Of a DNA stretch of 64,000 bases, positions 1,931 through 60,264 are shown piece by piece (position 1 is the stretch's first letter; every line of letters starts with the position of its first letter). Location of the stretch: assembly GCA_023488455.1 (NCBI GenBank), contig JAMDDV010000034.1, positions 1 to 64,000 of the forward strand. The letters run 5' to 3'. This stretch comes from Actinomycetota bacterium. Its GTDB lineage: Bacteria > Actinomycetota > Humimicrobiia > Hakubellales > JAMDDV01. A program made the translations under genes and the position numbers. A model generated the notes under the pieces. That model was not told the origin of the DNA. It searched no databases and saw only the letters and a list, made by a program, of their open reading frames with translations.

Positions 1931-2251
1931 TGGCTCCCCGGGTAGGACTCGAACCTACGACCCTTCGGTTACGTTTACCCCAAAATTTCTTTTGGGAACG
2001 GACTATCTCATCATCCGCTTCGGATGTCGGGCGCTAACAGGACGTTATCGGTTGGGTATCCTCAGTCCATAGTCTCTGCACGTTCCTGCTTACCTATTAT
2101 CCCATTTAGCAGGCTTCGCTCAGGATTACCATAACCTCTTGTTTCATTAGAGGCCTAAGGCTTCCCTGAATTCACCCGATTTTCCATCCCGATTCTCACC
2201 GGGACGCTGCATTGTTACAGCCGAATGCTCTACCGATTGAGCTACCGGGGA
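1931..2251 (-). tRNA. tRNA-Asn(GTT), interrupted by a group I intron
   Basis: The joined exons (2251-2217 and 1971-1931) fold into a canonical 76-nt tRNA: acceptor TCCCCGG/CCGGGGA, D arm GCTC/GAGC, anticodon stem TTCGG/CCGAA with loop CTGTTAA (anticodon GTT), T arm GTAGG/CCTAC, discriminator G and encoded CCA. Read without splicing the anticodon arm is broken by 245 nt. The 5' exon ends at T35 of the anticodon loop. A promoter with -35 TTGCTC and -10 TATAAT lies just upstream, so the tRNA can be transcribed independently of rpoD. Confidence 0.93.
1972..2216 (-). other. Group I intron in the tRNA-Asn anticodon loop
   Basis: A 245-nt intron. The 5' splice site follows a T, and exon GCTGT pairs with intron GCAGC (2206-2210) to form P1 with the expected U-G wobble. 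The intron ends in G (position 1972). Core elements are visible: P (AATTCAGGGAA, 2162-2172), Q (AATCCTGAGC, 2118-2127), R (GTGCAGAGACTA, 2070-2081) and S (GATAGTCC, 2000-2007). R and S pair as P7 through GACTA/TAGTC. There is no homing-endonuclease gene. Size and location resemble the small IC3-type tRNA introns of cyanobacteria and proteobacteria; the subgroup is inferred. Confidence 0.92.
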
Positions 2252-2271: not shown

Positions 2272-2300
2272 ATTATACTATAATGCTCAGCCTTGAGCAA
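2272..2300 (-). promoter_or_regulatory. Promoter of tRNA-Asn
   Basis: On the minus strand TTGCTC (2300-2295) and TATAAT (2277-2272) are separated by 17 nt, in the short gap after rpoD. The -35 box overlaps a small TGCTCA/TGAGCA hairpin that may slow transcription at the end of rpoD. Confidence 0.6.
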
Positions 2301-2303
2301 AAT

Positions 2304-3494
2304 TTACTCCAGGAAGTCCTTCAGCTTCTGGCTGCGGCTGGGGTGTCTGAGCTTGGAGAGGGTTTTTGATTCTATCTGGCGGATGCGCTCGCGTGTTACT
2401 CCGAACTCCTTGCCCACTTCTTCAAGGGTCCTTGGGTGGCCGTCAAGAAGGCCGAAGCGGAGCTGGATGACCTTTCGCTCGCGGATGGAGAGCGTTTCAA
2501 GCACAGTCTGCAGCTGTTCCTGCAGAAGCGCGAAGGAAGCTGCATCAACGGGGACCACAGCCTCCTCATCTTCTATGAAATCGCCGAGGTGGCTGTCCTC
2601 TTCCTCGCCGATCGGCGTCTCAAGAGATACCGGCTCCTGGGAGATCTTCAGGATCTCCCTCACCTTCTCAGGGGTGAAATCCATCAGTTCTGCTATCTCC
2701 TCAGGGGTTGGCTCACGGCCGTACTCCTGCAAGAGCTGCCGCTGTACCCTGATGAGCTTGTTGATGGTCTCAACCATGTGTACGGGTATCCTGATCGTCC
2801 TTGCCTGATCAGCGATAGCACGGGTTATTGCCTGTCTTATCCACCAGGTGGCGTAAGTGCTGAACTTGTAACCCTTGCGGTAATCGAACTTCTCCACCGC
2901 CCTGATAAGGCCGAGATTGCCCTCCTGTATGAGATCAAGGAACTGCATTCCGCGGCCAATGTACTTCTTGGCGATGCTCACCACTAACCTTAGGTTTGAT
3001 TCGACGAGCCGCTGCTTTGCCGCAAGATCGCCCGCTTCTATGCGCTTGGCGAGAATTACCTCCTCCTGCGCCGTCAGCAGAGGCACCTTGCCGATCTCCT
3101 TCAGGTACATTCTCACCGGGTCGTTTGTGGGGATCTTTATCGTCAAATCCAATTTCTTCTTGCTCTTATCCTCAATCTTTTCATCAAACTCCAGCGGTAA
3201 ATCCGCCCCTACGTCCTGAATCACATCGATCTTCATCGATGAGAGCAGCGTATATATGTTCTCTATCTGTTCTGGCGACAGGTCTACCTCCTGAAGCGAG
3301 TCTATTATATCCTCGTTGGTGAGCACTCCGAGCTCCTTGCCCCTGACAACGAGATCGTTAACCTCTTTTATCATGAGCTCAGGAAAGTCGGTCTTTTTCT
3401 TGGCGACCTCTTTCTGCGCCAGCTCTTTCTTGGTATTTTCTTTTTTAACAGGAGTTGCCTTGAGCTCTTCCTCTTTCTTTAACTCTTTTCCCAT
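2304..3494 (-). CDS. rpoD: RNA polymerase primary sigma factor (sigma-70/SigA)
   Basis: The vegetative sigma factor, 396 residues. Region 1.2 begins near residue 125 ([16 protein letters not shown]), region 2 spans about 165-240 with the -10 recognition helix ([17 protein letters not shown]) and the C-terminal region 4 carries the -35 reading helix ([20 protein letters not shown]). The first 35 residues are a lysine/glutamate-rich extension before a short region 1.1, as is usual in Gram-positive SigA. The ATG start overlaps the end of dnaG by 16 nt, giving the classical dnaG-rpoD pair; translation is probably coupled. Confidence 0.97.
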
Positions 3495-57419: not shown

Positions 57420-57504
57420 TGGTGCGAGAGGGGGGATTTGAACCCCCACGGTTATCCCACTGGATCCTAAGTCCAGCGCGTCTGCCAGATTCCGCCACTC
57501 TCGC
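57420..57504 (-). tRNA. tRNA-Leu(TAG)
   Basis: An 85-nt class II tRNA with a long variable arm; acceptor GCGAGAG/CTCTCGC, anticodon stem CTGGA/TCCAG with loop CTTAGGA (anticodon TAG), encoded CCA. Its 5' end is one base from the CCA of tRNA-Lys. Confidence 0.95.
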
Positions 57505-57505
57505 C

Positions 57506-57581
57506 TGGTGGGTCGTACAGGCTTCGAACCTGTGACCCCCTGATTAAGAGTCAGGTGCTCTGCCTACTGAGCTAACGACCC
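57506..57581 (-). tRNA. tRNA-Lys(CTT)
   Basis: A 76-nt cloverleaf: acceptor GGGTCGT/ACGACCC, anticodon stem CCTGA/TCAGG with loop CTCTTAA (anticodon CTT), encoded CCA. Confidence 0.95.
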
Positions 57582-57653
57582 CGAAAGAATTCCTAATTAG
57601 CAGCAGAATTTTAACAAATATCCCTGAAAATGCAAAATCGATGACCAATTTGT

Positions 57654-57730
57654 TGGTGCGCCCGGAGGGATTTGAACCCCCGACCTGCGGATTCGAAGTC
57701 CGTCGCTCTATCCAGCTGAGCTACGAGCGC
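57654..57730 (-). tRNA. tRNA-Arg(TCG)
   Basis: A 77-nt cloverleaf: acceptor GCGCTCG/CGGGCGC with one G-U pair, anticodon loop CTTCGAA (anticodon TCG), T arm GGGGG/CCCTC, encoded CCA. The base pair at the bottom of the anticodon stem (A27-C43) looks mismatched. An unmodified TCG anticodon rather than ICG would read CGA/CGG. Confidence 0.93.
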
Positions 57731-57737
57731 AAATAAA

Positions 57738-57815
57738 TGGGGTGAGCGAAGAGATTCGAACCCTCGACCTCAGGAGCCACAATCCTGCGCTCTAACCAAC
57801 TGAGCTACGCTCACC
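57738..57815 (-). tRNA. tRNA-His(GTG)
   Basis: Acceptor GTGAGCG/CGCTCAC plus an encoded G-1 (57815) opposite C73, the identity element of tRNA-His; anticodon stem CAGGA/TCCTG with loop TTGTGGC (anticodon GTG); encoded CCA. Confidence 0.95.
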
Positions 57816-57861
57816 ACGAAACTTACTATAGTGATACTAGATATTGTAATATAGTAATATA

Positions 57862-57938
57862 TGGCGCGCCCGGAGGGAATCGAACCCCCGACCCTCGGAT
57901 TAGAAGTCCGATGCTCTGTCCTACTGAGCTACGAGCGC
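57862..57938 (-). tRNA. tRNA-Arg(TCT)
   Basis: A 77-nt cloverleaf: acceptor GCGCTCG/CGGGCGC, anticodon stem TCGGA/TCCGA with loop CTTCTAA (anticodon TCT), discriminator G, encoded CCA. It shares the acceptor and much of the body with tRNA-Arg(TCG), suggesting duplication. Confidence 0.95.
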
Positions 57939-57964
57939 AATACCTTTAAAGTAAAGGTATTATA
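57939..57964 (-). promoter_or_regulatory. Extended -10 and leader hairpin before tRNA-Arg(TCT)
   Basis: On the minus strand TGCTATAAT (-10 hexamer 57964-57959) is followed by a 10-bp perfect hairpin AATACCTTTA/TAAAGGTATT directly ahead of the tRNA 5' end. No good -35 is visible, fitting an extended -10 promoter. Confidence 0.45.
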
Positions 57965-58006
57965 GCATACACAACTTAAGCCTTTGATGCAGGGTGATCG
58001 ATAAAA

Positions 58007-58082
58007 TGGAGCGGGAAACGGGATTCGAACCCGCGACCCTCAACTTGGAAGGCTGATGCTCTACCAACTGAGCTATTCCCGC
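58007..58082 (-). tRNA. tRNA-Gly(TCC)
   Basis: A 76-nt cloverleaf: acceptor GCGGGAA/TTCCCGC, anticodon stem TCAGC/GTTGA with loop CTTCCAA (anticodon TCC), encoded CCA. Confidence 0.95.
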
Positions 58083-58860: not shown

Positions 58861-60264
58861 TCATATACAGCAACTTATTTTTGAGATATCTTTCGTAAAT
58901 GAGAGTGCGACAATCTTTATAGCCTCTGAAAACGTTGGGAACATCGGAAGCGAATTCGTCACATCGTCAATGGTGTTTTTATTTTTGATAAGTATCATTG
59001 CCTCTGCAATAAGTTCCCCTGAATGGGGCGCAAGAATATGAACACCTGTGATCTGTTTCGTTTGCGGATGAATCGCCATTTTGATAAGCCCATCCGTTTG
59101 GCGCATGATGATAGCTCTTGGCATATCAGTAAATGAAACAGTGCGACAGGCGCAAACGCCCATTTTCTTCATTTGCTCCTCTTCGGTAAGCCCAACACCA
59201 GCAAGTTGCGGGTCGGTGAAAATCGTATATGGAACGGAATTGTAATCTATGCTCTTTTTAGAGCCATTTAAAGCGTTCTCCGCAGCAAGTGTTCCTTCAT
59301 GCCCAGCCGTCGGCTCAAGACGGAGCGGGAGACTGACTATGTCTCCAATCGCGAAAATATGTGACTGTGATGTTTGATAAAATTGATTAACTTTGATCGC
59401 TTGTTTTTCATTTATCTCAACATATGCCCTATCAAGCCCCAACCCCTGGGTGTTTGGTGTCTTTCCTGTTGCCAGAAGTATCTCGTCTCCAGCAACTTCT
59501 TCTTGTTTGTTATTGATAATGTAGGATAGAATTTTTTTATCGTCTTCTTTGCGGGCGCTTTTTACCTCAACATTAGTTCTTATAGTAATGCCTTCTCTTG
59601 TTAGTATCTCACCGAGCCTATCGGTTAATTCTTTTTCCGCTGAGGGGAAAATAGAGGATCCTCCTTCTAAAATTGTCACTTTTGTTCCAAAGCGTGCGTA
59701 CATTTGAGAAAACTCTAATCCTAAAGGCCCTGCACCCACGACAATAAGCTCCTTCGGTTGTTCCTTAAGTTTTAATGCTTCAATATGAGTAATAAATCCA
59801 ACCTCTGCAATATTCTTTATTGGAGGAATGGTAGCAGTAGAACCGGCAGCAATAATAAATTTCTCAGCTGAAAATTTCTGATCATTGACTTCTATCTCAT
59901 TTGGCGAGAGAAAATGTACATTGCCCTCAATAAAAGTTACATATTTCAAGTGATCCAAAACTTTTTCGTACTTTTCCTGACGGAGGCGTTCCACAAGCGC
60001 AAGCTCATCTTGAATAACCTTTTGGAAATCGAAATCTTTTATTTCAAGATCAATACCAGGAATGCCGTGATTTTTTGATCTATACAAAACCTCGCCAGCA
60101 TAAATGAGGGCCTTAGAAGGAACGCAACCAACATTTACGCAAGTGCCGCCAAGCGGGAGCCCGGAACCTACCATTGCAGTCCTTGCTTTTAGTTCATTGG
60201 CGCGAATTGCAGCTGCAAAAGCACCTGCGCCGTTACCGATTATAACAAGATCAAATTTCTCCAT
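58861..60264 (-). CDS. merA: Mercuric reductase-like flavoprotein (core MerA, no HMA domain)
   Basis: A pyridine-nucleotide disulfide oxidoreductase of 467 residues. FAD-binding GNGAGAFAAAIRA at the N-terminus, redox pair C42 and C47 (GGTCVNVGCVPSKA), NADPH-binding GAGPLGLEFSQMY and a C-terminal dimerisation domain. The tail ends ISCCI: the adjacent C465-C466 match the Hg(II)-binding cysteine pair that marks MerA and is absent from lipoamide dehydrogenase. There is no N-terminal heavy-metal-associated domain and no merR, merT or merP nearby. It lies in an AT-rich islet between tRNA genes. Function as Hg(II) reductase is likely but inferred. Confidence 0.87.
   Translation of the reverse strand: MEKFDLVIIGNGAGAFAAAIRANELKARTAMVGSGLPLGGTCVNVGCVPSKALIYAGEVLYRSKNHGIPGIDLEIKDFDFQKVIQDELALVERLRQEKYEKVLDHLKYVTFIEGNVHFLSPNEIEVNDQKFSAEKFIIAAGSTATIPPIKNIAEVGFITHIEALKLKEQPKELIVVGAGPLGLEFSQMYARFGTKVTILEGGSSIFPSAEKELTDRLGEILTREGITIRTNVEVKSARKEDDKKILSYIINNKQEEVAGDEILLATGKTPNTQGLGLDRAYVEINEKQAIKVNQFYQTSQSHIFAIGDIVSLPLRLEPTAGHEGTLAAENALNGSKKSIDYNSVPYTIFTDPQLAGVGLTEEEQMKKMGVCACRTVSFTDMPRAIIMRQTDGLIKMAIHPQTKQITGVHILAPHSGELIAEAMILIKNKNTIDDVTNSLPMFPTFSEAIKIVALSFTKDISKISCCI

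Follow-up and report, generated by a model that had tools for sequence, protein, structure and literature searches.

The window, as we call the whole 64-kb stretch of DNA analysed, contains on its minus strand a tRNA-Asn(GUU) gene whose anticodon is split by a group I intron, directly downstream of rpoD. The features of the locus are as follows.

1931..2251, minus strand: split tRNA-Asn(GUU) gene, exons and intron (ARAGORN with introns allowed)
2217..2251, minus strand: 5' exon, tRNA positions 1-35, ending ...CUGU with U35 (sequence, ARAGORN)
1972..2216, minus strand: 245-nt group I intron, ending with omega-G at 1972 (RF00028, 94.1 bits; ARAGORN)
1931..1971, minus strand: 3' exon, tRNA positions 36-76, starting UAACC (sequence, ARAGORN)
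2272..2300, minus strand: possible tRNA promoter, TTGCTC, 17 nt, TATAAT (read from the sequence)
2304..3494, minus strand: rpoD (NF006666, 591 bits)

In intron mode, ARAGORN reads the whole split gene, 321 nt, as tRNA-Asn(gtt) with the intron between anticodon bases 35 and 36, and removal of the intron is predicted to leave a complete 76-nt tRNA whose CCA is encoded and whose discriminator base is G73, the predicted exon junction in the ligated tRNA being CUGUUAACC. The joined exons form a cloverleaf without mismatches (ARAGORN; 16 of 16 by our own cloverleaf parser). The initial annotation had claimed that excision of 1972-2216 leaves a perfect tRNA-Asn, and both the claim and the bounds are correct, the latter to the base; the strand, which it left unstated, is minus. 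With introns disallowed, ARAGORN called no tRNA at 1931-2251, and in standard mode it found no second tRNA-Asn within the window. Annotation without intron mode thus overlooks this gene, and a genome so annotated would seem to be without tRNA-Asn. A pattern for the 3' end (intron end plus tRNA) matched once in the window and in none of 100 shuffles.

A gap of 52 nt separates the tRNA-Asn gene from rpoD, which lies upstream in the same orientation, with dnaG and dgt following beyond rpoD, and the ORF tested on the other side of the tRNA gene (480-1229) matches no NCBIfam family. While similar introns are present in phage contigs, these neighbours argue against a phage or contaminant fragment having been joined into the contig, and an artefact of this kind is very unlikely. 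A scan for consensus promoter and terminator sites listed none for the tRNA-Asn gene, the possible promoter going unlisted because the scan needs four of six matches per hexamer and TTGCTC has three. As to the host, RecO is 84% identical to that of a MAG labelled Omnitrophica WOR_2 RBG_13_44_8, a label at odds with DnaG, whose named relatives among the 120 matches listed are actinomycetes, the best being Candidatus Hakubella at 46%, with more labelled Actinomycetota; the closer protein relatives reach 81-84% identity for DnaG and 84-90% for RecO; Hakubella, Hydromicrobium and Humimicrobiaceae we take to be actinomycetes. The gene order valS-folC-ndk-mreBCD-rodA-rng-obgE, with names assigned from the sequences, is presumably actinomycete-like. 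Judged by RecO and DnaG, the host looks like a deep-branching actinomycete, which agrees with the Gram-positive-like genome suggested initially. Elsewhere the window encodes a MerA (mercury(II) reductase) protein at 58861-60264 on the minus strand (498 bits, cut-off 454), near a cluster of six tRNAs at 57420-58082.

The Rfam group I intron model, with which the initial annotation had proposed to check the region, matched in full length (RF00028, model positions 1 to 253; window 2227-1979, minus strand) and scored 94.1 bits, well over the gathering score of 50, with an E-value of 6.2e-23. The helices assigned, all on the minus strand, are listed below.

2206..2221: P1, exon GCUGU (2221-2217) with GCAGC (2210-2206), 6-nt loop (sequence, fold)
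2187..2204: P2 hairpin, 7 pairs, GAGA tetraloop (fold, alignment)
2027..2179: P3, 2179-2173 with 2033-2027 (5 of 7 pairs changed on both sides)
2120..2169: P4, 2169-2164 with 2125-2120 (5 of 6 pairs changed on both sides)
inside P4: P5, 2160-2156 with 2133-2129
inside P4: P5b, 2153-2149 with 2139-2135
2080..2119: P6, 2119-2118 with 2081-2080 (fold, alignment)
within 2080..2119: P6a, 2113-2109 with 2089-2085 (fold, alignment)
2001..2074: P7, the guanosine-binding helix, 2074-2069 (R element) with 2006-2001 (S element)
2040..2068: P7.1, 2068-2065 with 2043-2040, between the P7 5' strand and the P3 3' strand
within 2040..2068: P7.2, 2061-2060 with 2051-2050, between the same two strands
2012..2026: P8, 2026-2021 with 2017-2012 (fold, alignment)
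1973..1999: P9.0, GUU 1999-1997 with AAC 1975-1973, directly before the terminal G
within 1973..1999: P9, 1996-1990 with 1985-1979, GAAA loop (fold, alignment)

P3, P4, P6, P6a, P7 and P8 are complete in the window, and every pair of the P3, P4, P6, P7 and P8 core, including the P3/P7 pseudoknot, forms; the only failure in a core helix is a U-U mismatch in P5. The P7 strands read GACTAT/ATAGTC, and GNRA loops cap both P2 and P9. A U-G pair at the splice site in P1, a terminal G, and core elements including R and S had all been noticed initially, and all were found: U2217 pairs with G2210 at the 5' splice site, a U·G kept in 42 of 42 aligned rows, and G1972 closes the intron at the 3' splice site. 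The 35 nt separating the P7 5' strand from the P3 3' strand form P7.1 and P7.2 in the window, an insertion that is typical of subgroup IA and whose absence is, to our knowledge, a criterion of subgroup IC3, to which tRNA-Leu, tRNA-Ile and tRNA-Arg introns belong; across the relatives, however, P7.1 pairs in only 59.7% of cells. From this anatomy we infer with high confidence that the intron is self-splicing.

Covariation was assessed in an alignment of 42 introns with 12 exon bases per side, taken from 63 tRNA-Asn introns of at most 300 nt; 21 were excluded by hand before counting, without a written rule and keeping rows that looked alignable, and the exclusions took away 11 of the 14 rows from phages and 10 of the 48 from genomes. 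Two members of the set (L051 and L160) are possibly mis-parsed, and the structure tested was drawn from the window's sequence, which somewhat favours the window's structure. Pairing reached 87.6% of 2718 cells against 67.7% in shuffles and fell to 35-42% when the 3' partners were slid, and two-sided changes occurred in 605 cells against 194 in shuffles; none of 500 shuffles reached the observed value on any of five measures, the shuffle control ignoring relatedness and the sliding control keeping it. The gain from two-sided changes came from P2, P3, P4, P6a, P8, P9 and the first two P9.0 pairs. P1 and the first five P7 pairs are nearly invariant and hence neutral as covariation, so that covariation says little about P7, whose sixth pair forms in 21 of the 40 rows with letters. 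The first two P9.0 pairs are mostly AC/GU in the relatives and GU/AC in the window, and this swap, next to the 3' splice site, is compensatory as read from the alignment; the third P9.0 pair is made by 15 of the 42 rows. The weak helices were P5 and P5b (together 67.2% paired) and P7.1 (59.7%), the P7.1 stretch being absent from several relatives. An enzyme-spliced intervening sequence of the bulge-helix-bulge type, or another insert merely resembling group I, would suit the location, the anticodon loop also housing enzyme-spliced introns according to passages of PMC4033280, but the full-length Rfam match, the splice-site U·G, P7, the omega-G and the covariation of P2, P3, P4, P6a, P8 and P9 make such an origin extremely improbable. 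The group I intron in tRNA-Asn proposed initially is thus borne out by RF00028, ARAGORN, structure and covariation.

Relatives of this group I intron occupy the same site in many other genomes. A scan of genome contigs with a pattern combining the S element, a G preceding U36-A-A and the 3' half of the tRNA gave at least 116 stretches with the intron pattern at tRNA 35/36, the site and the terminal G of the relatives being built into the scan pattern. The cloverleaf parser read 102 of them and left 14 unread, and among the matches listed the parsed loci comprised at least 95 tRNA-Asn, five tRNA-Lys(UUU), one CAU and one CUU. Judged by record title, the tRNA-Asn intron hosts among these matches are mainly Patescibacteria and Omnitrophota, together with the cyanobacteria Microcoleus, Tychonema and Hormoscilla, a deltaproteobacterial MAG (L180) and a Pacearchaeota contig (L125). 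Of 18 intron loci whose genomes were searched with RF00028, 17 matched; 16 of the 18 parse as tRNA-Asn, and for each of these the model hits where the parser had placed the intron, 15 times above the cut-off and once (L140) below it at 42.3 bits. The pattern was present in 14 of 193 genomes from the phylum of G001 (the genome of L162, labelled Omnitrophota) and in 6 of 96 from the phylum of G006 (the genome of L147, Saccharibacteria, hence Patescibacteria). When 48 genomes from the phylum of G001 were searched for other forms of the intron, four gave a match, two of them already known, which does not account for most genomes there matching neither the intron pattern nor that for an intact tRNA-Asn.

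The introns of Hormoscilla (L122), Oscillatoriaceae (L143), L201 and Peregrinibacteria (L137) share tRNA, 35/36 position and fold with the window intron and are alignable to it (blastn E 6e-23 to 1e-18), but differ in host phylum. Within the collected set the best blastn matches were cyanobacterial at 6e-23, Peregrinibacteria at 1e-18 and phage at 1e-15. In an intron tree the window's grouping was supported at 0.73 and the branching order was poorly supported; naming a donor from this tree was rejected, the support being too weak.

Several further introns were observed. In the Pacearchaeota contig (L125:929-1351, plus strand), a group I intron of 423 nt interrupts tRNA-Asn and comes with a shortened HNH-like ORF; the contig also encodes a protein resembling archaeal KH family arCOG04150 (105.6 bits, cut-off 114.2) and a Taw3-like protein, below cut-off. 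Five tRNA-Lys(UUU) genes parsed as split at 35/36 by introns of 199-242 nt (L139, L179, L221, L159, L235) come from Gluconobacter, Acetobacter and Brytella, which are acetic acid bacteria, and from two proteobacterial MAGs. A second group I intron of Microcoleus genome G002, beside its tRNA-Asn intron, lies in tRNA-Arg(CCT) (L237:126-443) and shares with the window intron only matches of 22-24 bases (E 0.12 or worse); tRNA-Arg is among the known bacterial hosts of anticodon-loop group I introns. At L238 (G013:C4:19425-20917), three group I intron matches fall within 1.5 kb, where ARAGORN called no tRNA.

The at least 95 tRNA-Asn introns vary widely in length, 59 being at most 350 nt, 5 of 351-500 nt and 31 longer than 500 nt. 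Among the matches listed, 28 of the 31 genome introns above 500 nt contain an HNH-like ORF with the motifs CxxC[GK]Y, HH and CxxCH, which starts in an enlarged P1 loop. Two such ORFs tested against Pfam HNH scored 20.0 and 20.5 bits (E 5e-4 to 8e-4) against a cut-off of 21.4; the L192 intron carries a LAGLIDADG_2 ORF (E 1.6e-25), and the ORF of L161 had 3612 relatives at E of at most 1e-10 out of 3719 candidates, the database searched being clustered at 90% identity. Unlike these many tRNA-Asn 35/36 introns with an enlarged, ORF-bearing P1 region, the window intron has no endonuclease ORF in the three sense frames of exons plus intron, since the longest stop-free stretch there is 34 codons. 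The likeliest reading of the window copy is therefore a small intron, lacking an endonuclease, from a family that is probably mobile.

The same site is also occupied in phages. A first pattern used on viral contigs was loose, giving at least 120 stretches of which 34 were parsed, with 17 tRNA-Asn and 9 tRNA-Lys among the matches listed; the other stretches resembled intact tRNAs with odd loops. Rfam searches of 12 viral loci placed RF00028 above the cut-off in five and not in seven. Phage contigs with tRNA-Asn split at 35/36 include L007, L009, L015, L016, L022, L033, L038, L045, L052, L069, L094, L096 and L104, and those with tRNA-Lys split there L003, L017, L044, L065, L079, L087 and L109, the introns being parsed at about 180-250 nt. 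These IMG/VR phage introns in tRNA-Asn and tRNA-Lys (L009, L015, L052 and others) thus share the 35/36 position with the window, and the L009 intron matches the window intron at blastn E 1e-15. Unlike the window gene, several phage loci sit among other phage tRNA genes, and some phage introns encode proteins absent from the window intron, namely PD-(D/E)XK in L050 and, as judged by eye, HNH-like in L060 and LAGLIDADG-looking in L067. Among phage and plasmid records, the best 20 of 27 and the best 20 of 45 matches reach no further than parts of the tRNA exons and span no more than 20% of the query. The phage contig L038, which bears a parsed tRNA-Asn intron, also has a permuted tmRNA match at 1897-2363 on the minus strand (47.9 bits, gathering score 47).

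Intact tRNA-Asn genes were sought in intron-bearing genomes, 50 of the 95 tRNA-Asn loci being submitted and 49 genomes searched. A strict intact pattern matched one of the 49 and was dropped as insensitive, its control reaching 38 of 193 genomes in the phylum of G001, a sample in which intron and strict intact pattern occurred together in none of the 193 and neither occurred in 141. A broad pattern matched 10 of the 49 and missed 39; it matched 64 of 96 control genomes in the phylum of G006 and 9 of 48 in that of G001, so that a missing match carries weight in the phylum of G006 but says little in that of G001. Some broad matches had wrong tRNA spacing (one of two places in G002; G080; G299), and two of the six intron-bearing genomes in the G006-phylum sample also match the broad pattern (G028 and, with odd spacing, G299). 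The ten genomes with a broad match would accord with the window holding a dead copy, an intron that no longer splices while an intact tRNA-Asn elsewhere serves translation. The 39 genomes lacking such a match count against this, weakly for part of the set given the controls, and an inactive insert in a tRNA that the cell can spare would be expected to drift, so that a mismatch-free cloverleaf (parser 16 of 16) and a core in which a single P5 pair fails also count against it; we consider a dead copy unlikely. If, on the contrary, the split gene is the only copy, every asparagine-containing protein of the host would depend on a ribozyme.

Taken together, the locus very probably encodes a tRNA-Asn precursor with a compact self-splicing group I intron from a family that shares this site and includes HNH-bearing members. 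By analogy with known group I intron chemistry, the chromosomal tRNA-Asn(GUU) would be transcribed as a precursor containing the intron, which would fold into its P1-P9 core and bind exogenous guanosine in P7; after cleavage following U35 at the P1 U·G pair, the freed 3'-OH of U35 would attack just behind the terminal G, so that U35 and U36 become linked and the anticodon reads GUU again, and ordinary tRNA processing would ensue. The family occupies tRNA-Asn 35/36 in many bacteria and some phages; its long members bear an ORF for an HNH-type endonuclease in the P1 region and, on the same analogy, probably spread by homing, whereas the window copy has lost, or never had, that ORF. We lean towards a wider reading, in which tRNA-Asn 35/36 may be a major undescribed homing site, with an HNH-intron family spread over Patescibacteria, Omnitrophota, Cyanobacteria, deep Actinomycetota, phages and at least one archaeon, often in what would be the only tRNA-Asn, so that growth would need self-splicing, and in which the endonuclease-free window copy is probably fixed. 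The intron family is a more interesting object than the window's single intron, and its occurrence across phyla, in phages and on an archaeal contig may offer a testable system for the spread and fixation of tRNA introns and for host-phage exchange.

In the published record, passages of PMC3984707 place the group I introns of bacteria chiefly in genes for rRNA and tRNA and phage introns to that date in protein genes only, with Asn unmentioned in those passages, while excerpts of PMC8450103 attribute the lack of fMet or Ile2 genes from 36 genomes to group I introns. Parts of PMC4033280 describe cyanobacterial tRNA-Leu and fMet intron families, and those of PMC5733544 report tRNA-Arg, Gly and Lys introns in cyanobacteria, the tRNA-Asn passages there concerning conserved bases. 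Excerpts of PMC11270868 treat rRNA introns of CPR bacteria with tRNA unmentioned, those of PMC6125680 count 39 archaeal group I introns, all in rRNA (compare the tRNA-Asn intron of L125), and those of PMC3888941 describe a phage tRNA-Ser with a 58-bp intron at 34-35; a tRNA-Asn intron is absent from excerpts of PMC6145125, PMC11395459, PMC8813620 and PMC6293099. A search of the open-licence literature (titles and beginnings of abstracts), which includes few subscription journals, found among the papers listed no description of bacterial or phage tRNA-Asn group I introns, which is weak evidence of novelty. The initial remark that an Asn host is unusual therefore stands for the literature searched and fails for genomes, where at least 95 other tRNA-Asn loci have an intron at this site. 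The window intron is a group I intron of a tRNA gene, a known kind, in a host tRNA that we found undescribed. Like the known bacterial tRNA introns in passages of PMC3984707, PMC8450103 and PMC4033280, it lies in the anticodon loop and would use the same chemistry, whereas those introns interrupt other tRNAs, mostly at 37/38 according to PMC4033280, and the window intron interrupts tRNA-Asn at 35/36.
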